NCBI GenBank assembly: GCA_012838545.1
Contig: DUPC01000022.1
Span: 1 to 38,695, forward strand
Length of the DNA stretch: 38,695 nt
Reading direction: 5' to 3'
Source: Acholeplasmataceae bacterium
GTDB taxonomy: Bacteria; Bacillota_I; Bacilli_A; ML615J-28; CAG-313
Part shown: positions 598 through 35,883 of the stretch, piece by piece
Numbering within the stretch: the stretch's first letter is position 1
How the letters are laid out: each line of letters opens with the position of its first letter
Translations under genes and position numbers: made by a program
Notes under the pieces: model-generated
What the model saw: only the letters and a program-made list of their open reading frames with translations
The model's database searches: none
What the model was told of the DNA's origin: nothing

Positions 598-640
598 AAA
601 AAAAAGGTAGAACTTTATACTTAGATAAGTTCTACCTTTT
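598..640 (-). terminator. Rho-independent terminator of the giant-protein gene
   Basis: A perfect 14-bp stem (AAAAGGTAGAACTT pairing with 627-640) with an 11-base loop is followed on the minus strand by a run of T. It lies 15 bases after the stop codon at 655. Confidence 0.9.
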
Positions 641-654
641 GTTTTATTAATCAA

Positions 655-3600
655 TTAGTCCCAACTTGCATATTCATCATACAAACCCCATTTTTTATCC
701 TGGGTTGTCGGCTTGATGACGATGGCAAGGGTCCTGGTGATTGGATCGGCAGTCGGACTAAAGACAAAGTAGTATAGTCCGCTATAACCTTCCGCTACCG
801 TATTCATTGGCGGAAGTTTATAGGCATTGATTTTCCAATCGGTGACACTACTGTGCATGATATACATTTCATAATGATATCTTTCGCCCGGTGTTAAATC
901 TTCGGTTGTGGGACCGGTGTACCTTGGCGTGATAATGTTAAAGTTAAAGGCACCGGTGCTAACCCGACCAAACCGGTAAATTAAGTTCTCATTATCATCA
1001 ATGAAATAATATAACGATGCTTGAATATCGATATTGTCGAACGATTCTTCTGTTATTCCTGCCGGGAAATCATCAACGGTTGGTCCGGTAGTTGCATAAA
1101 CATTATCCAAAATGAAGTTTTTCATTGAAATAAGAAGGACATTTTTGTCGATTGGCGATTCTGACGATGCAGCATCTATAACCGTTCCATCCGGCATTTC
1201 GTAATAGATTTTAAAGCGCAATGTAAGGTTATATTTGATATCTCTTATCGATATGAAATAATGTACTTCTTGTCTATTATTGGTATCCTCGGATATTACC
1301 CGATATTGAACAATTTTGGTTTCGTCCATCTCATTGCCAGTAAAGTCGTCATACAAATCATCTGTCCAAAGTCCTGTCGTTTCATCTTTCCTTTGAATAG
1401 TTGCTCCATAAGGCAAGAAGAAGCGTGGACTGTAATCTTCAAGCATAATATCCGATACTTCTCCGAAAATCCTATAACTTGTTATACCGTTGGAAATCGT
1501 ATCAACATAGTCAATCCCTTCTGCATAGACACGAGGATCATATTGGCTTAAAATATTTCCACTTTCATCCAGTGCTTTTATTTGAGGATAGCGGTATATA
1601 GTTTCCGTATCGCTCAAAGTGAACTTAACATCAAGCAAGTAGGCGCTGGTTCCCGGTAACTTTTCTATTTCAATTTCCCCTAAGGAATATTCCTCTCCTT
1701 CGCGATTTAAAGTGAAGCTGTACATCTTCTGACCTTTATCTAGCAAACCGGTTATGTAAAAGATGAACCTGTCAATATGGTTTCCCTCATAAATTTCCGT
1801 TTCATCAAATTCAAAGTCAACATAACCTACACCTTGAATAAATTCAAAAACATTGAAATTGATTTGTTCATACAACGAATTGTTGTTAAAACGGAAATCA
1901 ATAGCAATTTCCGATAGATTTGCTTCCCTTGTGATAGTAAATGAGTAGGCGGCTTGATAGTTATCGTTCAAGTAAACTTCCATCGGTTGAAGATTCCGTT
2001 CTAGAATAGTATGGGTTTTATTAATTGTTGTTCCTGCTTCGTTTCGAATTCTGTAGGTCAAGATATATTGGAGTTTTCCTTCGCCATTATAATTATACAT
2101 TATATATGCTTCGCTGAGGATTGCAAAAGGGGCAATTCTAATAGTTGCAATAATTTCATTATTAAATATTAATTCATAATATTTATTGTCTACATAGGAA
2201 AGTTCTCCATCGAGTTCAACGGTAGTTATCGATAATTCAAGATTTGAGTTTCTGTTGACACCAGGAATAATATAACCAAATTCTGTATAAGTGGTAAACG
2301 AGTTTGCGCTAGTTCTTTCAAACGAATCAACCATTCCTTCTAAGTCGTTTGAGAAATAATCGTGGTTAACATCGACAATATCATGACTGGTAGAAGAATT
2401 CTTATATATTGCGATATATCGTTTTGCGCTATTGGAATAATAACTGTATTCTATTCGGTAATAACCAGATTGAATTAAATCGCTAAATTCGATTAAAAAA
2501 CCAAATTGATTTGATTCGTTTCTTGGAATAATGGTTAAGGAGTAAAATCGCGGATCTATTTTTTCCGTTGTTGTAGGTTGTGTTGGATGGTCAACCAAAT
2601 AAACATCGTGAACAGTCATCATGTGGTTTAATGGAATCAATTCCCTAACCGTATCGGTTGTACCAGTAAACAACGCTCTAAGCGAACCATTTGGGTTGAG
2701 CTGACGTGATTCACCGGTTATGGAAAAATTATCACTGAAGTTCGCTGGATTATATGTATTTGTAGAATTAATCAAAAATGAGACATTTGTGTCTAAAGCA
2801 GTACTACTTATTTCAATTCGGATTTGATATCTTTCCCGGTAAAGATCCACATCATTAAAAATGTTTTCATCCATGACACTTAATTCAGAATATACCATGA
2901 TATCAAAAGTAATTGTTCTATTTCCTGTTCCTGGTGGTACAGTACCTGTAGCAGATAATTTATATGTTCCTTCGGAAATTATATCGTTAACACGATTCTG
3001 ATATGCCGCTTTGAAATCCTCCCACTCGCTAGGGTCTATATCAATTTTGGAAATAATTGCCTTGTTCGAAAGAACGTTTTGGTTAATTTCATACTTATAT
3101 GTTCCGCTTGTAAAAGCGGAGGTACTAACTTGATAAGTAATCGTCCTTGGAGTTGTGGAATAATCCACCACCCCTCTTGTTAAAATCGGAGATTGATTAT
3201 CGGGGTCATAAAATACCAATTGCGCTATTTTTGTTTGTACGCTTTCATCTTCAGGCAATATTTCGGCCTTATCGTTGTATTTCAATTGATACATATCGAA
3301 ATATTCGCTTCTTACTTTTTTGGCAAACGCATCGCCCTCAAAAGTGATTTTTTGATCGTGAGAAACATTTTCCAAATCAATATATTCAAACTCGGTTTCA
3401 TTGAGCTTGTAGAAATTATTAATGTCAATATTTGCAGGAAGAGCGGTACCGTCCCTGCTTCCGCTTTGGCTGGCAAGAACGTATCTACCATAGAAATTAG
3501 GGTTGGTTGGATCTTTTAATTTATCTGCAATAGCGTCCTGTTTCACCGGATATATATATTTTGGATCATTTTCAGTCATTAACGGAAACTTATGAAGAAA

Positions 3601-6600
3601 AATATATTCTCCATATGTTGCATTATATAATTTAGTTACATCATCAACAACATATACTACCGGATATCTAACCCTATTGTCAGTTGATGGAGTTGAGGTG
3701 CTACCATAATTTTGCGAAGAAAAAAAGTTTGCTGAAGTGTATGTATGATTCTCAATTGTAACATACTGCGTAGATGAAGTATTTGGATTATAATGCGTAT
3801 TTTCAACTAAACCATAGTTAGAGACTGAATATGCTGCATTGGTGTTTATAGAAGTAAACGAAAACAAAACACCGTTTTTAAATGTTCTGCGATAGGCGTA
3901 ATTATCTACCGAACTTCCAGATGTATTGACTACTCTTTTTGTCAACCTTTCTTCTTCAGAAGCAGTATAAGGTTCAGAATTTACTGTTATCTGTGTTACA
4001 TAATAACTTCCTGACCTTCTTTGAATTCTAAAAGTAACATTGGCATCATGAAATGCATAACGTTTTTGAATTCTGTAAAACCATCCTACAACTACATAAC
4101 TTGTTGTATCATTTATTCTTGCGGAATAGTAAGAAGTTTCTTCGCCGCTAGTATGCAAGCGATAATATGTCCGGCTACTCGTAAGGTTATACATATCGGT
4201 TCTTCCGATAAAATCAACATTTGGATCCATGTTTAAAACATTTTTAAATTCAGCGGATTGCATAACCCCCATATAACCACGTTGAAGACGACCAATAAAA
4301 CCGCCAAATCCTCGTTTTTTATTTGGGTAATTTGCTAAATTTGAACTTGATGGAAATAAAATATTATTATTATCAGGATAGTACCAATCGTTGTCTTCGA
4401 ATTGAATTATTAGACCAGTTCGCCCGTTTTCATCTTCCACAACATCATAATTAATATTTTCGAATTCGACTCGGTCCGCTAGTTTTAGCCTTCCATAATG
4501 TACTGCTGTATTAATATTTACTGTGGTTGTTGAGTTACCCATAATAAAGGTTGCCCCAATTACACCCCCAGCAGTATCTGTAGCTGATATAACTCCATAA
4601 TTAATCATTCGAATCATTTTGGTCAAACCATAGGCCACTACTCCTCCAGCACAGGATCTAATTCCTGGTCTTTCAGAATTTGAACGTCTCCTTCCTGTTG
4701 AAGTTCCATCACTTCCGTTATATTCTCCAATTGTTTGCGAAATGGCAAAAATATTACCATAATTTAACCCGCTGGATAATTCACAGTTTCCGATTGGATC
4801 CGCATTTCCTACCACTCCCCTACCGAAAGGGCCTTCTGTAGAACCTGAACTCGTAGATCCATATGTTCCTGCTGAAAGTTCTGCAGAAAGAGCTAGACCA
4901 AGAATTCCTCCGCTTCTAACAAATTGTTTGGCTTTTCCAAATACGTCACCATTATTGATGGTGTCTAAAATTTTGGCATAGATACCGCTCGGAATCTCAT
5001 TTGAATCAAAATAATCTTCAAGTAAAGTCCCCTCAAAATTTCCAAAAGCAGCAGAAATTCCGCCTAAGGTCAAACCTCCTTCATAAACAATGACAAGACC
5101 AGCATAACGTGCATTGTAAGTATTATTTCCCGTTTCTCCTGAAAAACGAGCATTAGCATTTGAATTGCTATTTGTATAAGTAATATTTCCGCTGTTACCC
5201 GCATCCTGTATCAAGTTATAATTGAAAGTCGTAATTCCGCCGACAAATGAATTGGCAGTACCTTCTATGGTAGCTACATTTTCATCCAAATCAGAAGAAA
5301 TATTCCCATAATTAAAGGCGTTGATAATTTCGCCAACATTAATATTAACCAGCCCTGCGACATAAAGATTATTAATTGTAGAGAACGAACCGGAAAAACT
5401 GTTAGTAGAATCGTTATAACTACTTATAGTTGTATTTCCATTAATACCAGCTGTATAAATGTTTCCGTCATTCACAACATTGGTCATAGTATACATTTTA
5501 TATTCTGGATTATCTCCCGGTTTTGACCATGTATATGGTAATATCCAAGAAATACCTGCAACATAAATACCACTATCCTCTGTATTATTTATTTTTAGAA
5601 CTTTAATGTCACCGGAATTAATGACATTTTCATAATCAACCTTTGTAGCTTGGGTAATATTGGAAATTCTTATTTCTCTATTGATTGGGATTGTAGGACC
5701 GCTTCCCGAAATGTTACCTACCGATAGGTCTCCTTTATTTTCAACATATAACAGTTTCGACGGGTATTTGTTTTTTGTAGTTGATGGTTCATCATTTACT
5801 ACAGAAAAGAACGGAGCAATTCTTATAGTGTCTGGGTTAGTTAAACCGGAAATTGATTGAAAATAACTGGTTCCAAACGTATAATCTTGAGTATTGTAAG
5901 CTCTGCTTAATAAAATCCCTTTTTCGCTATTATCAACAACAGTTGATGCGTAATAAATATAACGGTTATGATTTTGATAGTTTAGGTTGGTAATATCAAA
6001 ACCGTTCTGATTTGACATATATGATATTTGGGCTAGTTCTTCTGAAGTATTTGCAACCCCAATTCCTGCCGCATAAAGATATGTCAAAGTATTAACATAT
6101 TGTCCCTTTATCAAACCATTGTTTTCGAAACTTCCGTTATGAACTTCTGAGCCGTTGTTTAATTTAAAGCCATAGCCTTTAACGCTTCCAAAAATGCCCC
6201 CCGCAAATTGATGCACTAAAACAAGCACAATTGGGTTAGTTCTGGAAATTCCATGGAATAAGTTTGCGTCAACGGTTCCAAAATTACTCAAATAAACCAA
6301 TCTATTGGTATTTTCTATAAGGGATGTGGATTGATTATTATTATGAATCTCACCAATTATTCCACCAGTATAAGTTAAAACATCTTCTGGAGAAATATAG
6401 TTATTATCGCTTGATCCAACACCGGTTACATTTCCGCGGTTTTGGGAATATTCAATCGTTAAAGGACCTTGATTTGTGCCAACCAAACCCCCTACATAGA
6501 ATTTAGCATTTAGAAGTTTCCCTTCAAAGTCGTGTAAACCGCCGTCTATTGACCCAATGTTATGAACATAAGAAAGCGTTCCTGATGCAAGACCGACAAC

Positions 6601-8508
6601 CCCACCTGCATAGGTTAAACCAATTGCCTTATTTCCTAAATCAATGTCAAAATCAGTGATTACGTTTCTTATCGAGCCTTCTCCTCTTAATTCACCGGTT
6701 ATTCCGCCGACATAGAAAATCTTACCGTAATGATCAGTGCTATTTGTAACATTAATATTATTATTGAAAAAGTTGATATTCTCAACAGAACCGGTCAAGG
6801 TACTAAATAAGCCCAAATAATACTTGTTACCAACAATATATGGTTCGTTTATGGTTAAGTTAAAAATATAGAGGTTATTTTCTGGAGGTAAATCCGGCGA
6901 CAACGGTTCCTCTGGCTCTTCAATAGATTTTAAAACCCCATCAAACTCCTTTCTTGGCGTTTTAAAACTTTTGAAATTTATCATATTAATATTTTGGGTT
7001 AATTTATAGGTGTGGTTAGCAAAGAAGTTACCGTTTTGGGGAGTATTGAGATTGACTAATTTCGAAAAATAAATAAAGTCAAAATCATTTTCAATTAAAT
7101 ACGCACCATCTTGATACTTTAACCAAATCAATTGGGGATAACCGTCAGCTCCATAGAAGTTCCATTTTAAGATATCTCCAGTTTCTCCGTCATTGATAAT
7201 AATATCTTCTTCTAAACCGCTTGATTTACCTTCCTTGAGTTCACTTGGGGAGTATGGGGTTGCTAATTCCTCGTACTCACTTGGCAATACGACAACAGGA
7301 TAACCAGAACCTCTTTCAAAAGCGCATCCCTCAATGGTTCCTTCATAAACTACATCTTGCAATTCGCCATTTACCAATTCTTGGGTTACCACTTCGTTGG
7401 CATAGACAAACGGCATTATATGCGAGAAACGGAAACGCGATGATGAAATTATGATGTTATTGCTGACAAAATAACAGTTTTTGATTGTTCCGATATTTGT
7501 GTGAACAAAACCGGCCGCTGTGGCCATTTTGTTGGTCGGGTAGTCGAGCGTGAAAGTCATCCCTGAAATATCTTGATTTTGAGCATTTACGCGTCTGTCG
7601 ATAACCCCTATGTTATATACCAAACCTTTGTTTTCTCCAACAAGGTAAGAGAATTTAAAGACATCAAAAGAATCATCCGGAGCATTTAATGTATAACTTG
7701 GGTTTCTTAGAATAAAGTTTTTTACAACTCCGCTTTCACCAATCCTAGCAAACATGGCATAGTTGTTGATGGTGGAAACGATAATCGATGCTGTTGCGCC
7801 GGATGTATCTTCAAATGTGGTTCTGAGATATGTGTATTCCGCAAGATAAAGATTAATGATTTCAAAACCGTTTCCGTTAAAAGTACCGTTAAAGGTAAAA
7901 TGGATTTCATTTTGGAAGGTACCTTCCAAGATAGTGATTTCGGTTCCGATTGGCACAAATTTTTGCGCTTTCCTGGTCGAGTAATCGATATCTGCAAGCA
8001 ATTCATAATCAAGGGACAAAATTTTATTTATGGTATGGGCAAAAATATAAGTGTTTGTTCCCCCGGGACTATCAAAGTTTATTGATTGCGCATTACCGAA
8101 TTGATATAATTCCAAAGCGCTGGAGATTGATACAATCTTCCTAGTTTGTCCTCCTTCTTCCGGATTTTCAATTTCCAGCAAATCATCAATATCGCTGACA
8201 ATATCCAAATCTGCTTGCAATTTTTGTTGGGCTGTTGCATTTTCGCTTAAAGCATTACGATGGGTTTTTATAACTTCATATATTTCGCTCATTGGGACAT
8301 ATTGTTTTACTTGATGGAGATTCGTAGTTGGTTCGGATAAGCTTGGTTCAAAGAAGTTATTGCTTAATAGTTTTATATGGGAATTTACGTAATCGTTCGC
8401 TCCGCTTTTTTGCTTTTGCCCTGTAAGCGGAGATATTGCAAGAACCAATAACAAACTGAAAATTATAACTAAAAAGCCTTTTTTAATGATTTGTTTGGTT
8501 TTCAACAT
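655..8508 (-). CDS. Giant secreted protein with GLUG/beta-helix-like repeats (2,617 aa)
   Basis: The start is taken as the ATG at 8508, one base after the upstream stop; an in-frame ATG at 8541 would overlap that gene and lacks the signal-peptide layout. Residues 1-30 form a signal peptide (K-rich, then IIFSLLLVLAISPLTG) with no lipobox. GLUG-like units appear near residue 209 (GTFNGNGFEIINL) and 520. From about 600 to 1405 roughly 15 degenerate repeats carry a GG[IVL][VIT]G core (VGGITGEL, AGGVVGLA, SGGILGLA, AGGVIGAT, FGGFIGRL), which suggests a right-handed beta-helix stalk. The last 1,000 residues are beta-rich and unrecognised. There is no LPXTG, no terminal membrane helix and no enzymatic motif. 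The C terminus ends in WGLYDEYASWD. An adhesin or surface-layer role is inference; the substrate is unknown. Confidence 0.85.
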   Translation of the reverse strand: MLKTKQIIKKGFLVIIFSLLLVLAISPLTGQKQKSGANDYVNSHIKLLSNNFFEPSLSEPTTNLHQVKQYVPMSEIYEVIKTHRNALSENATAQQKLQADLDIVSDIDDLLEIENPEEGGQTRKIVSISSALELYQFGNAQSINFDSPGGTNTYIFAHTINKILSLDYELLADIDYSTRKAQKFVPIGTEITILEGTFQNEIHFTFNGTFNGNGFEIINLYLAEYTYLRTTFEDTSGATASIIVSTINNYAMFARIGESGVVKNFILRNPSYTLNAPDDSFDVFKFSYLVGENKGLVYNIGVIDRRVNAQNQDISGMTFTLDYPTNKMATAAGFVHTNIGTIKNCYFVSNNIIISSSRFRFSHIMPFVYANEVVTQELVNGELQDVVYEGTIEGCAFERGSGYPVVVLPSEYEELATPYSPSELKEGKSSGLEEDIIINDGETGDILKWNFYGADGYPQLIWLKYQDGAYLIENDFDFIYFSKLVNLNTPQNGNFFANHTYKLTQNINMINFKSFKTPRKEFDGVLKSIEEPEEPLSPDLPPENNLYIFNLTINEPYIVGNKYYLGLFSTLTGSVENINFFNNNINVTNSTDHYGKIFYVGGITGELRGEGSIRNVITDFDIDLGNKAIGLTYAGGVVGLASGTLSYVHNIGSIDGGLHDFEGKLLNAKFYVGGLVGTNQGPLTIEYSQNRGNVTGVGSSDNNYISPEDVLTYTGGIIGEIHNNNQSTSLIENTNRLVYLSNFGTVDANLFHGISRTNPIVLVLVHQFAGGIFGSVKGYGFKLNNGSEVHNGSFENNGLIKGQYVNTLTYLYAAGIGVANTSEELAQISYMSNQNGFDITNLNYQNHNRYIYYASTVVDNSEKGILLSRAYNTQDYTFGTSYFQSISGLTNPDTIRIAPFFSVVNDEPSTTKNKYPSKLLYVENKGDLSVGNISGSGPTIPINREIRISNITQATKVDYENVINSGDIKVLKINNTEDSGIYVAGISWILPYTWSKPGDNPEYKMYTMTNVVNDGNIYTAGINGNTTISSYNDSTNSFSGSFSTINNLYVAGLVNINVGEIINAFNYGNISSDLDENVATIEGTANSFVGGITTFNYNLIQDAGNSGNITYTNSNSNANARFSGETGNNTYNARYAGLVIVYEGGLTLGGISAAFGNFEGTLLEDYFDSNEIPSGIYAKILDTINNGDVFGKAKQFVRSGGILGLALSAELSAGTYGSTSSGSTEGPFGRGVVGNADPIGNCELSSGLNYGNIFAISQTIGEYNGSDGTSTGRRRSNSERPGIRSCAGGVVAYGLTKMIRMINYGVISATDTAGGVIGATFIMGNSTTTVNINTAVHYGRLKLADRVEFENINYDVVEDENGRTGLIIQFEDNDWYYPDNNNILFPSSSNLANYPNKKRGFGGFIGRLQRGYMGVMQSAEFKNVLNMDPNVDFIGRTDMYNLTSSRTYYRLHTSGEETSYYSARINDTTSYVVVGWFYRIQKRYAFHDANVTFRIQRRSGSYYVTQITVNSEPYTASEEERLTKRVVNTSGSSVDNYAYRRTFKNGVLFSFTSINTNAAYSVSNYGLVENTHYNPNTSSTQYVTIENHTYTSANFFSSQNYGSTSTPSTDNRVRYPVVYVVDDVTKLYNATYGEYIFLHKFPLMTENDPKYIYPVKQDAIADKLKDPTNPNFYGRYVLASQSGSRDGTALPANIDINNFYKLNETEFEYIDLENVSHDQKITFEGDAFAKKVRSEYFDMYQLKYNDKAEILPEDESVQTKIAQLVFYDPDNQSPILTRGVVDYSTTPRTITYQVSTSAFTSGTYKYEINQNVLSNKAIISKIDIDPSEWEDFKAAYQNRVNDIISEGTYKLSATGTVPPGTGNRTITFDIMVYSELSVMDENIFNDVDLYRERYQIRIEISSTALDTNVSFLINSTNTYNPANFSDNFSITGESRQLNPNGSLRALFTGTTDTVRELIPLNHMMTVHDVYLVDHPTQPTTTEKIDPRFYSLTIIPRNESNQFGFLIEFSDLIQSGYYRIEYSYYSNSAKRYIAIYKNSSTSHDIVDVNHDYFSNDLEGMVDSFERTSANSFTTYTEFGYIIPGVNRNSNLELSITTVELDGELSYVDNKYYELIFNNEIIATIRIAPFAILSEAYIMYNYNGEGKLQYILTYRIRNEAGTTINKTHTILERNLQPMEVYLNDNYQAAYSFTITREANLSEIAIDFRFNNNSLYEQINFNVFEFIQGVGYVDFEFDETEIYEGNHIDRFIFYITGLLDKGQKMYSFTLNREGEEYSLGEIEIEKLPGTSAYLLDVKFTLSDTETIYRYPQIKALDESGNILSQYDPRVYAEGIDYVDTISNGITSYRIFGEVSDIMLEDYSPRFFLPYGATIQRKDETTGLWTDDLYDDFTGNEMDETKIVQYRVISEDTNNRQEVHYFISIRDIKYNLTLRFKIYYEMPDGTVIDAASSESPIDKNVLLISMKNFILDNVYATTGPTVDDFPAGITEESFDNIDIQASLYYFIDDNENLIYRFGRVSTGAFNFNIITPRYTGPTTEDLTPGERYHYEMYIMHSSVTDWKINAYKLPPMNTVAEGYSGLYYFVFSPTADPITRTLAIVIKPTTQDKKWGLYDEYASWD

Positions 8509-8509
8509 A

Positions 8510-9151
8510 TTACCACTCACCACCCCATGGAGGATTTGCAAGTCCCCAGTTCATTTGAGGACCATTCAAATATTGAACCGCATCAATTACAAACCCGATG
8601 CGTAAAGTGTATTTATTTTCATATATTGGATGATAGTCTTCGGCCGGCAATTGACCGATAAATTCAATTACAGTTGGTTCGTTTTCTGCAACCCGTTTTA
8701 CTTTTTCCATATAGTAAAAGTACCCGTCCTGAATTCGGTTGTCTTGGAAATCCTCTTGGTAATTGAATTTTGCGAAACCTTCTTTGGCAATCGCCACAAC
8801 CGTTTTTTGATTTCCGGTTATATATGTTAAGGTGAATTGTTCAACCACCTGAACACGGAAATAAGTAAGAACACTGCTGTATATTTTAATGTTTACCCGA
8901 AGATTGTTGAAATGGGTCAATTGACTTGGATCGGAAATATTGAGTTCAATTACGCCGTCTTCGGCACTTTCCAAATCAATATCAAGTCTTTCTTGACCCC
9001 TTTGGTAATAAGCTTCAACATCAACCACGACTTCTCCGATAATCTGCTCATCACTGATAGTATTGGAAGAAGTGAGGAATGCAGAAACAGTAGTTGTGAT
9101 TAAAAGGAATAAAACCGAAATAATTAGTAATGAGTACTTTAGAAATTTCAT
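8510..9151 (-). CDS. Small TasA/camelysin-like secreted protein (213 aa)
   Basis: The chosen start is the ATG at 9151, six bases after an AAGGTGA site; an in-frame TTG at 9166 and GTG at 9190 are alternatives that only lengthen the leader. The N terminus is a hydrophobic signal (FLKYSLLIISVLFLLITTTV) followed by SAFLTSSNTISDEQIIGEVV. That is the A-[FY]-x-T...N...G-x-V arrangement of SipW-processed TasA/camelysin proteins. The rest is beta-rich, without cysteines. It ends in NWGLANPPWGGEW, similar to the tail of the giant protein encoded one base downstream. The two genes are almost certainly co-transcribed and their products may be assembled together at the surface (inference). No signal peptidase gene is in the window. 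Family assignment is moderate. Confidence 0.7.
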   Translation of the reverse strand: MKFLKYSLLIISVLFLLITTTVSAFLTSSNTISDEQIIGEVVVDVEAYYQRGQERLDIDLESAEDGVIELNISDPSQLTHFNNLRVNIKIYSSVLTYFRVQVVEQFTLTYITGNQKTVVAIAKEGFAKFNYQEDFQDNRIQDGYFYYMEKVKRVAENEPTVIEFIGQLPAEDYHPIYENKYTLRIGFVIDAVQYLNGPQMNWGLANPPWGGEW

Positions 9152-9379: not shown

Positions 9380-10430
9380 TTATACTTTACATATGGAAAT
9401 ATTTTCTTTCTTTAACATCCAAGCAAGGATGCCAAAGGTTCGAATGCTAGCAAAGGGTATGTCTAAAGCAAACATTATCGCTATCAACATTAAAGTTGGT
9501 TGATAGATATTAAGAAGATAAAGAATGAATAAACTGCCATAAAAAACCGTATTAATCACTACCTCAGATTGAAATAACATATATGATGTTTTTCCGATGC
9601 GAAAAAAGATGATCTCGATAACATTATTATAAGCGAAAAGAATATAGAAACCACTACTAACAACAGCATTTTTTTTAAACATCCAAGTTGTTATCAAGAA
9701 GCAATACAGCTTTTAAGAACGGTTTCCCTAACGGAATTGAGATAAACCAAAAGATTACAATAATTGTGATGATACCAAAATATCCCAAAGTTTTGTCCTT
9801 AATACAATCTTTGTTTTCGCCACAATCTCGTTTAACTAGTTCTCCCAATTGCAATACCGGAAGCAAAATCCATCCCCAAATGAAGGTATTGGCTGCCCAA
9901 AAAGCACCTTGTCCGCCAACAACATTTATCATTCTTAATACCATTAACATGAAAGCAACGTTTCTTACAAAGCTTTCTAGGCCGGAAATACCCCCTATCT
10001 TGGTTAAGTTTTAAATTCAAGCAAATGATAATTTTTCTTTAGAGAAAAAAAATATGTCTTCTTGTTTTAAAATCCCCAAAATAATAATTAATAATATTGC
10101 ATTTACAATAATATTAGCAACGGTGATACCATTGACACCAATATTAAACGATACACTTAAATTGGAACCCCAAAGACATCCAGTAGAATAGTCAAAATCA
10201 TTTGGGCAATAAATAAATAATACAAATATTTTTCCTTTTTGATTACAACAATTGTAACCAAAAAACTTAAACAAAGTATTGAAAATATTGGCTATCATTT
10301 CCAGACAAAAATAAGTTGCGGTTAATTGATTAAAGATGAATTTTGGGCCATTAACTGAATTAAGGGCTTATCAAAAATGATAATTAAAAGAACAAAGTTC
10401 CATATATACCACCAGTAAAAATTAAGCGGG
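9380..10430 (-). pseudogene. MATE-family efflux transporter, N-terminally deleted and multiply broken
   Basis: Splicing frames gives one recognisable MATE sequence: ATYFCLEMIANIFNTLFKF, GSNLSVSFNIGVNGI, GGISGLESFVRNVAFMLMVL, FWAANTFIWGWILLPVLQLG and PTLMLIAIMFALDI. Lesions are: a frameshift near 10305; a compensated frameshift pair near 10260 and 10165; two nonsense codons (TGA at 10017-10019, TAA at 10011-10013) where the frame otherwise continues from EKLSFA into LTKIGGISG; and a shift in an A-run near 9680. The family is about 450 residues long, and here the N-terminal part, including the first helices, is absent: the remnant is fused in frame to an unrelated 5' coding piece at about 10430. 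Intact MATE proteins export drugs or metabolites using Na+ or H+; this one cannot function. Confidence 0.85.
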
Positions 10431-27536: not shown

Positions 27537-28562
27537 TTAGTCTTCTACTTGGTTTAAATCCTTTACTGTACTGCCTTTTTGTAAATGACCTTTGATAGTG
27601 ATGATTTCTGGTTTACAAGTTTTTGGATTTTCAATTATCTCTATTACTTTTTTAGCTGCACTTATACCAATATTTTTAGCATCCTGGACATAAGTTGTAA
27701 ACTCTGGTCTCATCAAACGCGATAATAAGATTCCATCGTATCCAACTACACTTATATCATCAGGGATTTTTAAGCCCCGTTTATTGATTACTGTCATACC
27801 GCCTAATAAGGAATAGTCATCGGGATAGATGATACAAGTTGGCGGATTAGACATATCCAGCAATTCTTGAGTTGCAATAGCAGAATCCTTAGGAACGTGG
27901 TATCTACCTTCTTTAATCATATCTTCTCTAATTTCTATTTTGTATTTTTGACAAGCCTGATAAAATCCCCGCAGCCGCTTTTGGGTAACACTCGTTAATT
28001 CCCCATGAATGAAAGCAATTCGTTTATGCCCCATCTGGGAAACATATTCGATGATATCATGCATACCTTGACTATTATCTGATACAACAGAGGAGCGATT
28101 TTCAAAAACATAGTCAATTGTAACAGTTGGAATATCACTTTCCACTAAATAACTAATTTCGGGATTAGTGAATTCAGCATTCGCGATAATCACCCCATCA
28201 CAATTTCTAAACCTCGTATGTTCATAATAGGTAAGATTTCTCGAACCTATGTGATGAGATATGAAGGTAATATCATACCCCCGAGCTTCACAGCCATCTT
28301 TGATTGCAGAAAGGATTCCTGAGAAATATTCATGTTGAATACCAGATTGGGTTTGATCCTCAAAGAGGACACCGATACTATAGGAATGATTGGTTTTTAA
28401 TACCCTTGCAGAAGCATTAGGAATATAGCCCATTTCTTTAGCAACACTTTTTATATATTCAACTGTTTTTGGATTAATGTCAGAAGCTTTACCACTAAGC
28501 GCTTTGCTGACTGATGCAATAGATAAATCACATTTCAATGCTATATCCTTAATAGTAACCAT
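27537..28562 (-). CDS. LacI-family transcriptional repressor of the beta-glucoside locus
   Basis: 341 residues. The helix-turn-helix is at residues 4-23 (IKDIALKCDLSIASVSKALS), followed by the hinge helix GYIPNASARVLK. The rest is a periplasmic-binding-protein-like effector domain (SIGVLFEDQTQSGIQHEYFS, ISVVGYDGILLSRLMRPEFT). Family members bind CG-centred palindromes such as AAACGTTT, and three such dyads sit at 33242-33380, so it probably represses the transporter operon and the divergent phosphorylase gene until sugar binds (inference). The start has AGGAGTGG upstream. It lies in the transporter operon and also has its own consensus promoter at 28602-28630. Confidence 0.9.
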   Translation of the reverse strand: MVTIKDIALKCDLSIASVSKALSGKASDINPKTVEYIKSVAKEMGYIPNASARVLKTNHSYSIGVLFEDQTQSGIQHEYFSGILSAIKDGCEARGYDITFISHHIGSRNLTYYEHTRFRNCDGVIIANAEFTNPEISYLVESDIPTVTIDYVFENRSSVVSDNSQGMHDIIEYVSQMGHKRIAFIHGELTSVTQKRLRGFYQACQKYKIEIREDMIKEGRYHVPKDSAIATQELLDMSNPPTCIIYPDDYSLLGGMTVINKRGLKIPDDISVVGYDGILLSRLMRPEFTTYVQDAKNIGISAAKKVIEIIENPKTCKPEIITIKGHLQKGSTVKDLNQVED

Positions 28563-28601
28563 AGTACCACTCCTTTTTTATTTTTTGTTTTATTTTGTAT
28601 T

Positions 28602-28630
28602 ATTATATAATAATTTCTGCTAAAATTCAA
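28602..28630 (-). promoter_or_regulatory. Internal promoter for the LacI-family gene
   Basis: TTGAAT (28625-28630), a 17-base spacer and a perfect TATAAT (28602-28607) on the minus strand. The -35 lies in the last codons of the ATPase gene, so the repressor can be made independently of the operon promoter. A palindrome ATTATTATATAATAAT surrounds the -10. Confidence 0.7.
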
Positions 28631-29882
28631 GATTATTTTCCGTTTCTTTACTAAACATATGAACGACATTTCCATTAAATCCAAACTTCAAAATCGATCC
28701 AACATAGTTTTTATAGGTGCCATTATTTTGAATAATGGCAATAATATCATTAGAGGAGGCATCTTTACTAAGCGTATAGTCGTTACCGATAATCTCTGCA
28801 TGGATATGACTGGATGCACCCATCAATTCGGATACCCGTACCTTACATTCGATACCTTCGTCTTTAATCGCAATATGATCTGGTCTTACCCCTAAGATAA
28901 TCCTTTGTCCTTTAACATGATTATTACGTAATCTTGCTTGTTTTTCTTCACACGGAACAACGGTATAACCATTTTTTAAGACCACTTTATATTGACCGGC
29001 TTGGATTAATAATTCAGCGTCAAAGTAATTCATCCTTGGACTTCCGATAAATCCGGAGATAAAGAGATTTCTTGGATGTTCATAAACATCTTGAGGCGTA
29101 TCAATTTGTTGGATAATACCATCTTTCATCACAACAATTCGGTCTCCCAGAGTCATCGCTTCAATTTGATCATGGGTTACATAAATAAAGGTTGTCTTGA
29201 TTTTTTCCCGTAAATTGATTATTTCTGCACGCATTTGGTTACGTAGTTTCGCATCTAGGTTGGATAATGGTTCATCCATTAATAATACTTTGGGATTTCT
29301 AACGATTGCCCTGCCGATTGCAACTCTTTGACGTTGACCACCTGATAGGTGTTTGGGTTTACGGTCGAGTAATTCCTCGATTTCTAAGAGTTTTGCAGCT
29401 TCAAGAACGCGTTTTTCAATTTCTTTTTTGGTTAAGTGCCGAACATTATCCGGTTTATTTGGTAATGGATCCTTATATTTTACAAATTTCAAAGGATAGG
29501 CAATATTATCAAAAACCGTCATATGTGGATATAAAGCATAGCTTTGGAAAACCATTGCGATGTCTCTGTCTTTTGGTTCAATCGCATTACATAACTTTCC
29601 ATCGATATACAGTTCTCCAGAAGTTATATCTTCGAGCCCAGCAATCATTCTTAATGTTGTTGATTTGCCACAACCAGAAGGGCCGACAAGAACGATGAAC
29701 TCTCCGTCTTTAATTTCTATATTAAAATCTTTTACAGCCAATACGCCCTTTTCCGTCAATTGGAGATTACTCTTTTTTGCTTTTTCTTCGACTTGGTTTT
29801 TCAAAGATCTTTTAAAACTTCTCTTCTTCTTTTCTACATAAGGATATATTTTTTCCACATGTTTCAAAACAACATCTGCCAT
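28620..29882 (-). CDS. Sugar ABC importer ATPase, MsmX/UgpC type
   Basis: 420 residues. Walker [10 protein letters not shown] near 69-77, Q-loop [14 protein letters not shown], signature [14 protein letters not shown], Walker [15 protein letters not shown], and the switch histidine in [17 protein letters not shown]-terminal OB/TOBE domain starts after about residue 300. Compared with MsmX there is a charged insertion of about 30 residues before the first conserved strand ([20 protein letters not shown]) and a longer loop after the Q-loop region; similar N-terminal insertions are known in other Firmicute sugar ATPases. It powers the two adjacent permeases. AGGAGA ribosome site; the gene starts 12 bases after the permease stop. 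Confidence 0.9.
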
Positions 29883-29894
29883 AATTTCTCCTTT

Positions 29895-30785
29895 CTAGCC
29901 CTTAACCGATCCGGCTGTGACGCCTTTAATAATAAATCTAGATAAGAATAAGTAAACAATAACAACTGGTAAAATCGATAAGAAAATTGCCATATAGACA
30001 CATCCTAAATCAATATTACCCCATGAGGTGCGTTGTAATGCATTAATCATAACAGGTAAGGTTTTCTTTTCACTATCAGATAACAATAATGATGGCATAT
30101 ATAAATTATTCCAGGAACCGACAAATGCAAAGATCATTTGCACGGCGAGGGCTGGTTTCATAATCGGAAGGACGACCCGATTAAAAGTCATAAATTCGTT
30201 GGAGCCATCGATTCTCGATGATTCAATTAAATCTTTTGGTAAAGTTGCTCTTAAGTATTGTATCATATAAAAGAAGATTGATGGCGCCGCAATCGATGGC
30301 AGGATTAACATCCACCAATTGTTTTTCAAACCATATTTACTTGCCATTTGGAAGAATCCGACCGATGATAATTGTGGAGGAATCATCATAATGGCTAGAA
30401 TAAAAGCTTCCATTAATCGTTTTCCTTTAAAATCATAAGCATAAATACCATAAGCTGTTAAAGCTGAAAAATAACAAGTCAAGACAGCTGAGCTAAAGGC
30501 GATAACAAAACTTGCTCTAAACCCCTTTAATGCATCAAAGTCAGTTTTAAATTTGGAAAACAAATTTTTAAAGTTTTGATTAAAAAACCTACTTAACATC
30601 AAGGTAAACCTACCGCCTTGTAAATCATTGTTCGCTCTTGTGGTATTAACTAATAATAGGTAGAAGAAAAAGATGCACATTACAGATACAAAACATAAAA
30701 AGCTATAACATAAAACTCTTAAGATAATAGCTTTAATAATGGCTCTGCGGTTTTCTTTTTTGTAATCGGTAATGACTCTATTCAT
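29895..30785 (-). CDS. Sugar ABC importer permease (MalG-like)
   Basis: 296 residues with six membrane segments. The EAA coupling motif is in SSRIDGSNEFMTFNRVVLPI followed by MKPALAVQMIF, the layout of carbohydrate (CUT1) permeases of the MalG/UgpE side. The N-terminal 25 residues are basic and cytoplasmic. It heterodimerises with the MalF-like permease encoded just upstream, whose stop overlaps this start as ATGA, so the two are translationally coupled. An AGGAG site lies inside the end of the upstream gene. Confidence 0.9.
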   Translation of the reverse strand: MNRVITDYKKENRRAIIKAIILRVLCYSFLCFVSVMCIFFFYLLLVNTTRANNDLQGGRFTLMLSRFFNQNFKNLFSKFKTDFDALKGFRASFVIAFSSAVLTCYFSALTAYGIYAYDFKGKRLMEAFILAIMMIPPQLSSVGFFQMASKYGLKNNWWMLILPSIAAPSIFFYMIQYLRATLPKDLIESSRIDGSNEFMTFNRVVLPIMKPALAVQMIFAFVGSWNNLYMPSLLLSDSEKKTLPVMINALQRTSWGNIDLGCVYMAIFLSILPVVIVYLFLSRFIIKGVTAGSVKG

Positions 30786-31714
30786 GACATTGATTCTCCT
30801 TTCCTATTGATACTCCTAAAAATAATAAGCGATAGGATTGCGGTTATGATAAATAAGACGACTGATACTGCTCCCGCATGTCCGTAATTGCCCACTTTTA
30901 AGTAATCATTTATCAACATAACGATGGTTCGCGTACTATTGTTTTTTGCTTTTCCAGTTAACACTTCAGCAACATCAAACATTTGCAATCCACCAATCAT
31001 GGAAGTAATAAATACATAAACAGCGATTGGTTTTAATAACGGTAATGTAATATCCCATAAAACATGGACTGAACTAGCACCATCGATTTTGGCAGATTCG
31101 AATACACTATTATCAATACCTTGAATTCCCGCCATTAAAAGAATGGTTGTATTACCAAACCACATCAGAAAATTCATAAAGGCAATTAATATTCGCGCCC
31201 AAGTCTTATCGGAAATAAAGTCAAAGGTTTGGGCAATCCAGCCTTTTTCCACAAACAAAGTATGGAATGGTCCAATCGTACCAAACAAAGCAAGAATCAA
31301 TGATGCAAAGGCCGCAGCCATAATTAGGTTCGGCATATAGAATACCGTCTTGAAAAATCCTGTTCCTTTAAGTCTTAATTTGGAACTGGTAAAGATTAAC
31401 GCTATCAGTAAACCAAAAGACATTTGGGGAATTACGCCAATTAACCAAATTATAATCGTATTGCCTAAACATCTTAATATTTCAATATCGCCACGTATGT
31501 TTCGAGAAAAGAGCATTTTGTAATTCTTTAAACCCGCAAATGACACTTCAGTCTCTAAAGTACCAACAATATCTGTATAATCAAAAAAGGAATCATAGAT
31601 TGTTAATACTTGTGGAATAAAGGTAAACAAAAAATATACAACAAAGAACGATGCTACAAATATATATCCCCATTTAGCGTAACTAGGGTTTTTCTTGTTC
31701 TTGTTTTCTTTCAT
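30782..31714 (-). CDS. Sugar ABC importer permease (MalF-like)
   Basis: 310 residues from the preferred ATG at 31714, which has GGAGG eight bases upstream; the in-frame ATG at 31732 has no ribosome site. Six membrane helices are predicted. The EAA motif is ESAKIDGASSVHVLWDITLP followed by LLKPIAVYVFIT, typical of CUT1 carbohydrate permeases of the MalF/UgpA side. Together with the MalG-like partner it forms the membrane channel for oligosaccharide uptake. It follows the binding-protein gene across a 72-base gap containing a hairpin. Confidence 0.9.
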   Translation of the reverse strand: MKENKNKKNPSYAKWGYIFVASFFVVYFLFTFIPQVLTIYDSFFDYTDIVGTLETEVSFAGLKNYKMLFSRNIRGDIEILRCLGNTIIIWLIGVIPQMSFGLLIALIFTSSKLRLKGTGFFKTVFYMPNLIMAAAFASLILALFGTIGPFHTLFVEKGWIAQTFDFISDKTWARILIAFMNFLMWFGNTTILLMAGIQGIDNSVFESAKIDGASSVHVLWDITLPLLKPIAVYVFITSMIGGLQMFDVAEVLTGKAKNNSTRTIVMLINDYLKVGNYGHAGAVSVVLFIITAILSLIIFRSINRKGESMS

Positions 31715-31742
31715 TAAAAAACCTCCACTCATTTTTTAATAA

Positions 31743-31769
31743 AAGCCATGGTTTTTAAAGCCATGGCTT
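31743..31769 (-). promoter_or_regulatory. Intercistronic hairpin after the sugar-binding-protein gene
   Basis: A perfect 9-bp stem AAGCCATGG/CCATGGCTT with a 9-base loop, followed on the minus strand by TTTATT. It sits between the binding-protein stop and the first permease, as in the other ABC operon (22130-22156). Confidence 0.75.
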
Positions 31770-31786
31770 AAACACTTTACTATGGT

Positions 31787-33169
31787 CTAATCAGGAACAA
31801 CTAAATTAGGGAAAGCTTTTAATAAATCAGCATAGAAGTCAGCTAAAGCTTTTTCTTTTGTGTTGATTTCTGCATCATTCTTTAAGAATTTAACAAATGC
31901 AGTTTGCAATCCTTCATTACAATGTTGATCATAAATTGTACTATATCTAACTACGATATTGTCTGCCATTTCAACCCAAACTTTAGTATCATTTTGACCA
32001 TTTAGTAATCCATTGCCTTTTCCTTCAGCATCATAGTCTGCTGCAACTTTAGCATTGACTTTTTTATTGTTAGAAAATTGTGAATCTTCTTTAACTAGTC
32101 TTTCAAGTATTTCTTCGTTATTTAAAAATGCATTCATTGTCTTAGCAACTAATGTATCGTTAGATCCAGCGCTAGGACATAATAGCCATGTTCCACCCCA
32201 GAAATAAGCTTGAGGACCAGTGATTAGACCCCAATCACCATAAGTTCCGCCAACATGTTCGTCACCTTCGCCCATTGCAGGACCCATGCAGAAATTATAA
32301 TACCAGGCAGGACCAAATGTGCAGAATACTTTTCCGCCTTCCGCAAATTCAATTGTCTTACCGCCATCCCAAACGCCTTCAGTCTTGGTATAGCCTTCTT
32401 TGACAAATTTTTCTGCTTGTTCCATCCAAGTTTGAACCGGAGTAGGGATTTGTACTTGTTTATTTTCATCAACCCATGGTTTATCGGCATTGTTGGAGAA
32501 TACACGATAAGTGTCAGCATATGAACCAGTCATATAGTAACCTTTTTCTTGCATCATTTCTGCAACATCTTCAAATTTTTCCCATGAATCAACCAATGGT
32601 TGAACATCTTCCGGTTCAGATACGCCTAACACTTCTAAAGCGATTGAACGTCTGTAAACCATGCCGGCAGGGCAGCATTGGAATGATGCAGCTTTGATAA
32701 CGCCGGTTCTATCGGTTCCTATATCTACTGTATATTGATAAGCTTGAGAGAAATCATCAACACCAATTTTTTCAATGTCTTTAGTTAATGAAGTGTTTAC
32801 ATATTTTAAGATGTAGTCAGCTTCAGCTAAAAACATATCAACTTTATTTTCTTCGTTTGCTGTTGCATTTTCTCTAAGCGCCATGTCAAGTGCATTTTGA
32901 TAAGCACCATTGTCAGAAGTTACAATAGTCCATTTTACCGGAACACCATCTAGGTGATAAGTTTCAATTGAAGAATCGTTTGCCTTTTCATCAGAAACAT
33001 ATTTGTTGAAAAAGCCTTGGAATTCAGTATTCCATGCATAAATATGGAATATTGATCCACCATCGTTCAATTCATCATCAGAACCATTGGTTTCACCACA
33101 ACCAATAAGAACAAATGTCAAAACGAAAACAAAAGAAACAGCCAAAAATTTTTTTAATAGTTTGTTCAT
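31787..33169 (-). CDS. Oligosaccharide-binding lipoprotein (CUT1 family)
   Basis: 460 residues. The signal peptide ends in the lipobox LIGC with Cys24 and is followed by an acidic linker. The mature protein has the UgpB/CycB-like pattern (FHIYAWNTEFQGFFNKYVSD near the start, later YGDWGLITGPQAYFWGGTWL with many aromatic residues), as expected for a sugar-binding cleft. The neighbouring cellobiose phosphorylase suggests cellobiose or cello-oligosaccharides as ligand (inference). An AAGGAGAG site precedes the ATG. It is the first gene of the operon, transcribed from a perfect promoter with operator dyads. Confidence 0.85.
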   Translation of the reverse strand: MNKLLKKFLAVSFVFVLTFVLIGCGETNGSDDELNDGGSIFHIYAWNTEFQGFFNKYVSDEKANDSSIETYHLDGVPVKWTIVTSDNGAYQNALDMALRENATANEENKVDMFLAEADYILKYVNTSLTKDIEKIGVDDFSQAYQYTVDIGTDRTGVIKAASFQCCPAGMVYRRSIALEVLGVSEPEDVQPLVDSWEKFEDVAEMMQEKGYYMTGSYADTYRVFSNNADKPWVDENKQVQIPTPVQTWMEQAEKFVKEGYTKTEGVWDGGKTIEFAEGGKVFCTFGPAWYYNFCMGPAMGEGDEHVGGTYGDWGLITGPQAYFWGGTWLLCPSAGSNDTLVAKTMNAFLNNEEILERLVKEDSQFSNNKKVNAKVAADYDAEGKGNGLLNGQNDTKVWVEMADNIVVRYSTIYDQHCNEGLQTAFVKFLKNDAEINTKEKALADFYADLLKAFPNLVVPD

Positions 33170-33241
33170 TTTTTTCTCTCCTTTTTAATTTTTTTGTTTG
33201 AGGGCGACCTCATTGAAACAATTAAGTTAAATTTTATTACT

Positions 33242-33251
33242 TAAACGTTTA
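33242..33251. promoter_or_regulatory. LacI-type operator at the transporter start site
   Basis: TAAACGTTTA is a perfect 10-bp palindrome centred on CG, lying around +1 of the minus-strand promoter. Confidence 0.75.
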
Positions 33252-33258
33252 CGTAAAT

Positions 33259-33287
33259 ATTATAATAAAACGTTTTCAATTTGTCAA
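33259..33287 (-). promoter_or_regulatory. Consensus sigma-A promoter of the sugar transporter operon
   Basis: TTGACA (33282-33287), a 17-base spacer and TATAAT (33259-33264): both boxes match the consensus exactly. The leader to the ATG at 33169 is about 83 bases. An operator dyad fills the spacer, so bound repressor would block polymerase directly. Confidence 0.9.
33267..33276. promoter_or_regulatory. LacI-type operator between -35 and -10
   Basis: AAAACGTTTT is a perfect palindrome inside the promoter spacer. The flank GAAAACGTTTT also resembles a CcpA cre site, so catabolite control is an alternative or additional reading. Confidence 0.7.
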
Positions 33288-33324
33288 TAGTTTTATAAAA
33301 AAATTTATTTTTTCTTATTTTAAC

Positions 33325-33352
33325 TTGATTTCAATAAATAATATGGTATAAT
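33325..33352 (+). promoter_or_regulatory. Promoter of the cellobiose phosphorylase gene
   Basis: TTGATT (33325-33330), a 16-base spacer with TGG at its end, and a perfect TATAAT (33347-33352), 58 bases before the ATG at 33410. Confidence 0.75.
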
Positions 33353-33364
33353 TAAAGCATATTA

Positions 33365-33380
33365 CCTTAAACGTTTAAGG
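33365..33380. promoter_or_regulatory. LacI-type operator downstream of the phosphorylase promoter
   Basis: CCTTAAACGTTTAAGG is a perfect 16-bp palindrome, the longest of the three, just after the expected start of transcription. It shares the AAACGTTT core with the dyads at 33242 and 33267. Confidence 0.85.
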
Positions 33381-33409
33381 TTGATTTTTTGGACTTGGAG
33401 TTGATTTTT

Positions 33410-35830
33410 ATGAAGTTTGGACATTTTGACGATCAAAACAGAGAATATGTGATAACCAATTATAACACTCCGTTGCCTTGGATAAACTATTTCGGACAAG
33501 ATGACTTTTTTTCGATAATAAGTAATACTTGTGGCGGTTATGCTTTTTATAAGGATGCCATGCTGAGAAGAATTACTAGGTACCGATATAATAGCGTTCC
33601 TCGCGATAATGGCGGTAGATACTACTACATTAACGATAATGGTTGCATTTGGAATCCAGGGTTTTTACCAACGAAAACAAAACTTGATAAGTATGAATGC
33701 CGCCACGGCTTGGGCTATACAATATTTAATAGTACTAAGAATAACTTAAATGCCAAACTTAGTTGTTTTGTTCCGCTAAAAGATGCCTGTGAAATTAATT
33801 TGTTAACTCTGACTAATCATTCTGATTCAACAAAACACATTACTTTACATGGCGTGGTGGAATTCTGTCTATGGAATGCGTTAGATGATCAAACTAATTT
33901 CCAACGGAATCTAAATATCGGTGAAGTAGAAATTGATGACCATACGGTTTATCATAAAACCGAATATCGGGAACGTCGCAACCATTTTTCTTTCTACTAT
34001 ACCAGCGAAAAGCATGCTGGATTTGATTCTGATTTAGATACCTTTTTAGGATTATACAATTCTTACAATGCACCGGATGCAGTGATGAATAAAACATCTT
34101 ATAATTCGGTAGCTTCTGGTTGGAGTCCCATCGGTTGTCACCGATTTGACATCGCGTTAAAACCACATGAAGAAAAAACCATCATCTTCTTACTAGGTTA
34201 TGTTGAAAATGATGATGACAAGAAATTCGTTTCCCTAAATGTTATCAATAAAGAAAAAGCATATGTTTTACAAACAAAATACAATTCGCTGGAAAAAGTA
34301 GCCAAAGCTTTAAGCGACTTAAAGAAACATTGGGATGAACTATTATCGATTATTAATGTTGATACCGGAAACGATAGGTTCGATCGAACTATCAATATTT
34401 GGAATCAATATCAATGTATGGTTACTTTCAATATATCAAGAAGCGCTTCTTATTATGAGTCCGGCATTGGTAGAGGGATGGGGTTTCGCGATTCATGCCA
34501 AGATTTATTTGGCTTTGTGCACCTAATTCCGAAAAAAGCCCGGGAAAGAATTATTGATATTGCTTCTATTCAGTTTAAGGATGGTTCGACTTACCATCAA
34601 TATCAACCGCTGACTAAACGCGGTAATGCCAATATCGGCGGAGGATTCAATGATGATCCTTTGTGGCTGATTGGTTCGACTGCTCAATACATTAAAGAAA
34701 CAGGGGATTTATCAATTTTAAATGAAATGGTTCCTTTCAATAACGAAAAAGGAACGGAAGTTCCGCTTTTCGAACATTTAAAGGCTTCCATCCATTTTAC
34801 GATAAATAACTTAGGTCCGCACAACCTGCCTTTAATCGGTCGAGCCGATTGGAACGATTGTCTTAACCTAAACTGCTTTTCCAAAACCCCCGGCGAATCT
34901 TTCCAAACCGCCGCAAACTTCGAAACCCGAAAAGCTGAATCGGTGTTTATTGCGGGGATGTTTATCTATTATGGACGCGAATATGTCAAGATAGCCAAAT
35001 TATACGGTCAAGATGAGGAAGCTGATTATATCAATAACGAAATCAAGAAAATGGAAGCAAATGTAATTAAACATGGTTGGGATGGCGAATGGTTCTTAAG
35101 AGCCTATGATTCTTTCGAAAGAAAGATTGGCTCAAAAAAATGTGAGGAGGGGAAAATTTTTGTTGAACCTCAAGGCTTCTGCACAATGGCAAGAATTGGC
35201 GAAAACCTCGGTTTAGGAAAAAAAGCCCTTGATTCGGTGGAAAAATATTTAACAAATGATTATGGCGTTGAACTATTATATCCAACCTACAAAAAATACC
35301 ACATTGAACTGGGGGAGATATCTTCTTATCCACCTGGATATAAGGAAAATGGCTCTGTGTTTACTCACAACAATCCGTGGATCGTTATAGCAAATACGGT
35401 TATCGGCGAAAACGAAAGAGCATTTGATGTTTATAAACGCAATTGTCCTGCCTTTTTAGAAGATATATCGGAAATTCACAAAACCGAACCTTATGTATAT
35501 TCCCAAACGATTGCAGGCAGAGATGCGAAAAATTATGGTGAGGCCAAAAACAGCTTTTTAACTGGATCAGCTTCGTGGTCGTTCGTCGCCGCAACCCAAG
35601 AAATTCTTGGCATTAAACCAGATTATGCTGGTTTAAGGATTGAACCTCATTTGCCAAAAGAAATGACAAACGTTAAAGTGACAAGAATATTTAGAGGAAT
35701 CAAATATAATATTGAAATATTTAATAATAATACGCCTAACCAAATGTTTGTTGATGGTAAAAAGATTGAAGAAACATTAATTCCCTATCATAAATCTTCT
35801 AAGGAAGTTTATGTGAAAGTATATATTTAA
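33410..35830 (+). CDS. Cellobiose phosphorylase (GH94)
   Basis: 806 residues from the ATG at 33410 (GGAG upstream); an in-frame TTG at 33389 is rejected because family members begin M[KR][FY]G[HY]FDD. It phosphorolyses cellobiose to alpha-glucose 1-phosphate and glucose in the cytoplasm. Conserved blocks are TPLPWINYFGQDDFFSIISN, RYRYNSVPRDNGGRYYY, EFCLWNALDDQTNFQRNLNI, SRSASYYESGIGRGMGFRDS and LPLIGRADWNDCLNLNCFS, with the catalytic acid Asp480 in RADWNDC. Length and blocks fit cellobiose phosphorylase better than laminaribiose phosphorylase or cellodextrin phosphorylase, though these GH94 relatives cannot be fully excluded. The enzyme saves ATP by making phosphorylated glucose directly. It is divergent from, and co-regulated with, the transporter. 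Confidence 0.9.
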   Translation: MKFGHFDDQNREYVITNYNTPLPWINYFGQDDFFSIISNTCGGYAFYKDAMLRRITRYRYNSVPRDNGGRYYYINDNGCIWNPGFLPTKTKLDKYECRHGLGYTIFNSTKNNLNAKLSCFVPLKDACEINLLTLTNHSDSTKHITLHGVVEFCLWNALDDQTNFQRNLNIGEVEIDDHTVYHKTEYRERRNHFSFYYTSEKHAGFDSDLDTFLGLYNSYNAPDAVMNKTSYNSVASGWSPIGCHRFDIALKPHEEKTIIFLLGYVENDDDKKFVSLNVINKEKAYVLQTKYNSLEKVAKALSDLKKHWDELLSIINVDTGNDRFDRTINIWNQYQCMVTFNISRSASYYESGIGRGMGFRDSCQDLFGFVHLIPKKARERIIDIASIQFKDGSTYHQYQPLTKRGNANIGGGFNDDPLWLIGSTAQYIKETGDLSILNEMVPFNNEKGTEVPLFEHLKASIHFTINNLGPHNLPLIGRADWNDCLNLNCFSKTPGESFQTAANFETRKAESVFIAGMFIYYGREYVKIAKLYGQDEEADYINNEIKKMEANVIKHGWDGEWFLRAYDSFERKIGSKKCEEGKIFVEPQGFCTMARIGENLGLGKKALDSVEKYLTNDYGVELLYPTYKKYHIELGEISSYPPGYKENGSVFTHNNPWIVIANTVIGENERAFDVYKRNCPAFLEDISEIHKTEPYVYSQTIAGRDAKNYGEAKNSFLTGSASWSFVAATQEILGIKPDYAGLRIEPHLPKEMTNVKVTRIFRGIKYNIEIFNNNTPNQMFVDGKKIEETLIPYHKSSKEVYVKVYI

Positions 35831-35846
35831 CTTTTGCGAAATAATT

Positions 35847-35880
35847 AAAATGGATTACGATTTTGTTCGTAATCCATTTT
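35847..35880. terminator. Bidirectional terminator between the GH94 and GH5 genes
   Basis: A perfect 14-bp stem AAAATGGATTACGA (35847-35860) paired with 35867-35880 around a 6-base loop, with T-rich tails on both sides. It ends both convergent genes; the GH5 stop is three bases away. Confidence 0.9.
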
Positions 35881-35883
35881 GTT

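Follow-up and report, generated by a model that had tools for sequence, protein, structure and literature searches.

The described systems closest to the locus reported here involve SipW or other signal peptidases. TasA subunits join by an N-terminal donor strand, formed by residues 28-38 (PMC9674648). The sipW-bsaABCRSD locus of Clostridium perfringens, as outlined in the portion of its report used here, encodes SipW together with BsaA, which is secreted and forms polymers, and further secreted proteins with an accessory role (PMC7395162). A further association, CoCoPALM, receives a single paragraph in the CoCoNuT paper (PMC11090510, 2024). Its McrB-like GTPases carry fused FtsB-like membrane/coiled-coil segments and are associated with signal peptidases that likely have a role in pilus assembly. 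That paragraph defers study of the association and describes no exported cargo. A literature search for the name CoCoPALM returned nothing relevant beyond this paper and its preprint.

We analyzed a 38,695-nucleotide stretch of DNA from an Acholeplasmataceae bacterium (hereafter the window), which is one entire contig of a 1.71 Mb genome in 65 contigs that is 96% complete. On its minus strand lie two adjacent ORFs, each read from an ATG. The upstream gene, SMALL (8510..9151), encodes a 213-aa exported protein that is a candidate adapter, and the downstream gene, GIANT (655..8508), encodes a 2,617-aa exported repeat protein. The SMALL stop codon ends at 8510 and the GIANT ATG begins at 8508, leaving the 1-base gap described in the original prediction, which had been made from the DNA sequence. 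That prediction also placed signal peptides on both proteins, and a hydrophobic export segment was found at each N-terminus. In SMALL, the AlphaFold2 model and the sequence indicate a hydrophobic helix at residues 2-29 (9065..9148, minus strand), which would be a signal peptide or a membrane anchor. In GIANT, the sequence indicates an export signal at residues 1-26 (8431..8508, minus strand), without a lipobox. A single promoter and terminator had likewise been proposed to flank the genes. The terminator was found: a Rho-independent hairpin with a 14-bp stem followed by a U run (602..640, minus strand; z = -4.4 versus shuffles) lies directly 3' of the GIANT stop codon, and was absent from the automatic scan because its loop exceeds the length that the scan permits. 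A single promoter could not be demonstrated, as a search gave 45 promoter-like sites versus a chance expectation of 39, none of which stands out. Upstream of SMALL, consecutive short membrane-protein-like ORFs without a Pfam match (9380-10014, minus strand) resemble decayed gene remnants. Farther along the window, a sugar-use cluster (27537-36906) encodes a LacI-type regulator and an ABC transporter, both assigned by sequence, as well as a GH94 phosphorylase and a GH5 cellulase, a content that suggests beta-glucan use.

SMALL was located beside GIANT at 47 of 47 GIANT 5' ends examined, representing 46 loci from several families of the class. This count takes the loci with the GIANT 5' end inside the contig; those lacking SMALL ended at a contig edge. 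Among the 47 pairs, the first usable GIANT start codon falls between 40 bp upstream and 48 bp downstream of the SMALL stop codon, and the two reading frames overlap or abut in every pair. GIANT homologues were present in 52 of 395 sampled genomes of the class. Of the 43 genomes in the window's order, GIANT is present in 14 and SMALL in exactly those 14, and one genome of the order has two copies of each. In the family (15 genomes), the pair recurs in one further genome with its adjacency and gene order kept, at approximately 40% identity. A scan of named genomes with a two-row GIANT profile yielded 11 loci, mostly from Acholeplasmataceae and unclassified Bacillota. Recurrent pairing in related genomes, which the original prediction had put forward as supporting evidence, was thus borne out by both the adjacency and the identical genome distribution, and the contrary case that it had named, GIANT homologues regularly occurring without SMALL, was encountered at none of the 47 GIANT 5' ends. 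The pairing is well supported, and the two genes are a conserved unit.

Several individual loci deserve comment. The free-standing locus of the window recurs, neighbours included, in a second genome. On contig C172 of a close relative that apparently belongs to another family (G020), SMALL is 88%, GIANT 59% and the neighbours 72-98% identical to those of the window; we rejected horizontal transfer as a reading of this likeness, since the bin is 6% contaminated and the contig may come from a relative of the window organism. Locus L011 (JAKOVX010000105.1), labelled Acidobacteriota, has a neighbourhood similar to that of G042 from the window's order, and is probably mislabelled or misbinned. A second weak match in the window genome (C35, E 0.077) is a lipoprotein-like gene and was dismissed as a member of a pair. 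At L010:11913-11977, one in-frame stop codon (TGA) splits a GIANT gene whose reading frame is otherwise intact, by mutation, sequencing error or recoding. A SMALL homologue at L113:14141-15712 (plus strand) contains large internal and C-terminal insertions (>500 residues).

Scans of SMALL and GIANT against Pfam and NCBIfam at E<=1 produced a sole match, which was weak and irrelevant. SMALL was assigned to no family in these scans, including the curated TasA/camelysin and SipW-dependent models, and had no match to TIGR04088; GIANT was likewise assigned to none, and had no Pfam GLUG match. Therefore, 'TasA/camelysin' and 'GLUG' are not database calls for these proteins. Of 10 SMALL homologues, 2 gave a match to the BsaA-family model TIGR04090, with a best E of 0.038 that is far below the cut-off. 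In profile-profile comparison, SMALL matched the SipW-dependent proteins of the relatives' operons with 97-98% probability over about 160-170 columns. Of these 11 operon proteins, 6 touch the SipW-dependent signal model TIGR04088, one of them shown above the cut-off; in the PDB they have weak matches, among them the two TasA sequences, whose E of about 1 falls short of significance. Judged by these profiles, SMALL is homologous to the SipW-dependent proteins of the relatives' operons and is no demonstrated TasA. The original description of SMALL as TasA/camelysin-like thus stands as a profile relationship and not as membership of a curated family.

The structural comparison had a similarly divided outcome for the TasA-like fold that had been anticipated. 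The AlphaFold2 model of SMALL (pLDDT 80) has an N-terminal helix followed by a beta-rich part, but a fold search with this model against the PDB gave no match at E<=1e-3, and TasA was absent from the best 50. PDB sequence searches with the SMALL and GIANT profiles likewise returned nothing significant. Just past the helix, residues 28-36 form a low-confidence stretch (9044..9070, minus strand; pLDDT < 50), which by analogy would correspond to the TasA donor strand and serve as the joining strand.

The most conserved part of SMALL in the homologue alignment is its C-terminal tail, NWGLANPPWGGEW (residues 201-213; 8513..8551, minus strand). Its pattern is N-W-x-L-x3-P-W-...-W, with N, W, L, P, W and W invariant in 10 homologues, and the W-G/L motif occurs in 42 of 47 loci. 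The tail codons include the purine-rich GGGGTGGTGA (8517..8526, minus strand), a probable Shine-Dalgarno sequence for GIANT, and an SD-like sequence is present within the last 36 nt of SMALL at 30 of 47 loci. The TGGGGAGGT-like coding sequence of part of the tail probably doubles as the GIANT ribosome-binding site. We therefore rejected conservation of the tail for the protein alone, as the SD-like sequences speak for a second role. At 8 loci, the PW tail is kept without an SD-like sequence inside SMALL, and thus the protein sequence of the tail is also constrained.

The N-terminal half of GIANT is repetitive. Residues 1-1450 contain 11 GG-type cores (GG[IVL]xG) and 17 NxGx[IVLF] motifs, versus shuffle means of 1.7 and 4.4, respectively, and a motif scan found no GLUG-like cores in the C-terminal half, beyond residue ~1,450. 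These counts delimit a GLUG-like repeat region at residues ~130-1440 (4189..8121, minus strand) that is a probable beta-helix. The GLUG/beta-helix assignment made originally was therefore upheld by the motif counts and not by Pfam, the helix being read from the motifs. Residues 1426-1436 (4201..4233, minus strand) form a signature block, NMDPNVDxIGR, that is near-invariant in all homologues covering it.

The C-terminal 1,000 residues had been said to match nothing known, but a resemblance was found. The C-terminal 1,197 residues were modelled poorly overall (pLDDT 54), with the best-modelled part, a credible array of beta domains, at residues ~1750-2170 (1999..3261, minus strand; pLDDT mostly 65-90). 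A fold search with this model matched multi-Ig, cadherin and S-layer proteins, including EA1, Sap and HPI, with E down to 6e-8 and low TM-scores. The C-terminal half is probably an array of tandem Ig-like beta domains, which is a fold class and not a family. GIANT ends in the tail KWGLYDEYASWD (658..693, minus strand), and a W/Y-G-L/F...W tail is kept in most homologues. This tail resembles that of SMALL, through either shared function or coincidence. In agreement with the absence of an anchor motif noted originally, the tail KPTTQDKKWGLYDEYASWD contains no C-terminal LPXTG, hydrophobic segment or charged tail as in a sortase-type anchor. Compared with the closest relative, dN/dS is about 0.08 for both SMALL and the N-terminal half of GIANT, with GIANT synonymous sites near saturation, which shows purifying selection on both. 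In the same comparison, the two ends of GIANT are the most conserved and residues 1501-2000 the most variable, as would be expected of a protein with anchored ends and an exposed middle.

In many relatives, SMALL and GIANT are the last two genes of a long operon. It begins with SipW-dependent/TasA-like proteins, a SipW-like peptidase, an AAA protein and a DUF2357 protein, and continues with a second peptidase and more TasA-like proteins (and a third peptidase in some) before SMALL and GIANT. The first peptidase matches NF046067 (SipW) at 4e-18 and TIGR02228 above the cut-off. The AAA protein has an AAA_5 match, a weak McrB match and an N-terminal membrane/coiled-coil segment, and the DUF2357 protein (PF09823, 2e-12) is McrC-like with a coiled-coil-like part and no match to a nuclease domain. 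A compact form of the operon without the AAA and DUF2357 genes also occurs, as do free-standing pairs. There are at least 13 free-standing loci, the window included, each with at least ~5 kb of sequence available upstream, a count that omits L072, whose contig ends 0.5 kb upstream. Operon genes too divergent to reach the profile threshold may have been overlooked. Since these pairs stand alone, a fibre shaft is not obligatory. In the SMALL homologue of L072 (16823-17665, minus strand; G020 contig C136), the W-G tail is followed by a rubredoxin domain at the C-terminus (PF00301, E 5.6e-16), which is unexpected in an exported protein.

Neither a SipW-like peptidase nor an McrB-like partner was found in the window genome (96% complete). 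All 14 other family members have a SipW-like peptidase, as do all 12 of the other pair-bearing genomes that were tested. The peptidase search proposed originally thus succeeded in the operons of many relatives and failed in the window genome, which encodes an ordinary signal peptidase I. It also encodes two transpeptidase-domain proteins, and the organism therefore probably has a cell wall.

The invariant adjacency of SMALL and GIANT makes it most likely that both belong to a single surface device, related to the TasA/SipW systems that build biofilm fibres in Bacillus, and we consider it reasonably probable that this device comprises an adapter subunit and a giant adhesin of a SipW/TasA-type fibre. 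GIANT would leave the cell by the general secretory route and form an extremely long and slender adhesin or matrix protein, with a GLUG-like beta-helix followed by an Ig-like beta-domain array. SMALL would come from the SipW-dependent (TasA-like) lineage and serve GIANT as a dedicated minor subunit, by capping it, anchoring it or handing it over. Because the pair ends a SipW/TasA-type operon in relatives, GIANT is most likely a tip or side adhesin and SMALL its adapter; the window's lineage would have retained the pair as a free-standing module, without the fibre. From these comparisons we infer a cell-surface location, contact between the two proteins, joining of the donor-strand type and an adhesive role. 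Arguments for such a device come from the relatives, in which SipW-like peptidases, TIGR04088 signals and TasA-like neighbours recur in a conserved order. Against it are the lack of a named family, the lack of a significant PDB match for SMALL, the missing SipW-like peptidase and McrB-like partner in the window genome and the pairs that stand alone.

Some of the same observations could be read otherwise. SMALL might act outside the final structure, as a chaperone dedicated to secretion or as a partner in export that keeps GIANT competent for assembly or guides its release. Its strict adjacency, its translation before GIANT and its greater conservation (88% versus 59% identity) would fit such a role, and TapA has been reported as a TasA chaperone (PMC10151520) and CapP, on the TasA/CalY side, as chaperone-like (PMC13082335). 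However, the SipW-dependent proteins that SMALL resembles in the relatives' operons are presumed to be structural subunits, and the alike W-G tails of the two proteins may point to a common structural role; we regard a chaperone as unlikely. Somewhat less likely still is a coat that is anchored to the membrane or wall and involves no fibre, in which SMALL would be an uncleaved membrane anchor and GIANT a cell cover. The pairs without fibre genes, the window among them, the failure to find a SipW-like peptidase in the window genome and the S-layer proteins among the GIANT fold matches are consistent with a coat. Those S-layer matches nevertheless reflect generic Ig-like similarity at low TM-scores, many relatives have the pair within a SipW/TasA-like operon, and the ordinary signal peptidase I is present in the window genome. 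That the adjacency reflects translational coupling of separate surface proteins, the SMALL tail codons merely supplying the GIANT ribosome-binding site, appears very improbable: the SD-like sequences at 30 loci agree with it, but the 8 loci with a PW tail and no such sequence inside the gene do not, and 47 of 47 adjacency over several families with perfect co-occurrence would be left unexplained.

If the adapter-adhesin reading is correct, giant adhesins may be a load of SipW/TasA-type systems. At the least, the analysis adds a surface unit of two genes that family databases do not detect and that is conserved across many uncultured Bacilli and Acholeplasmataceae-related bacteria. The unit also offers the CoCoPALM association candidates for its exported products. 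A more speculative and rather doubtful possibility is that this McrBC-derived AAA machine was turned from restriction to surface-fibre assembly, with SMALL-GIANT as its first recognised cargo and the free-standing pairs as escaped modules. Whether a restriction-type AAA motor helps build surface fibres has thereby become a testable question.

Comparison with known systems places the locus as follows. Similar to CoCoPALM, as sketched in its single paragraph, the relatives' operons combine a membrane/coiled-coil AAA protein, a nuclease-less DUF2357 protein and signal peptidases; this gene set is present beside the pair in relatives, whereas the window genome lacks it. The sipW-bsaABCRSD locus shares SipW with secreted subunits, and 2 of 10 SMALL homologues touch its BsaA family model (TIGR04090, E 0.038), but that match is far below the cut-off and the portion of the report used here mentions no giant partner. 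In sister genera, three operons encode SipW-like peptidases and small TasA-like proteins and then end in a 2,336-2,607-aa repeat protein (L042:1253-8263, L043:2430-9473 and L044:558-8381, the last on the minus strand). These giants, however, share only short GLUG-like segments with GIANT, without significant full-length profile similarity, which suggests repeated origin of giant adhesins or divergence beyond recognition, and no SMALL homologue was found in their genomes. With tapA-sipW-tasA of Bacillus subtilis, the systems have in common a SipW-type signal peptidase, small secreted beta-rich subunits and an accessory small protein. They differ in that a ~2,500-residue protein is here always paired with one small subunit, that there is no Pfam/NCBIfam TasA match and that the window locus is without SipW. 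The SMALL-GIANT pair has no family name in the databases searched, and it is a variant among SipW/TasA-type systems rather than a separate category.
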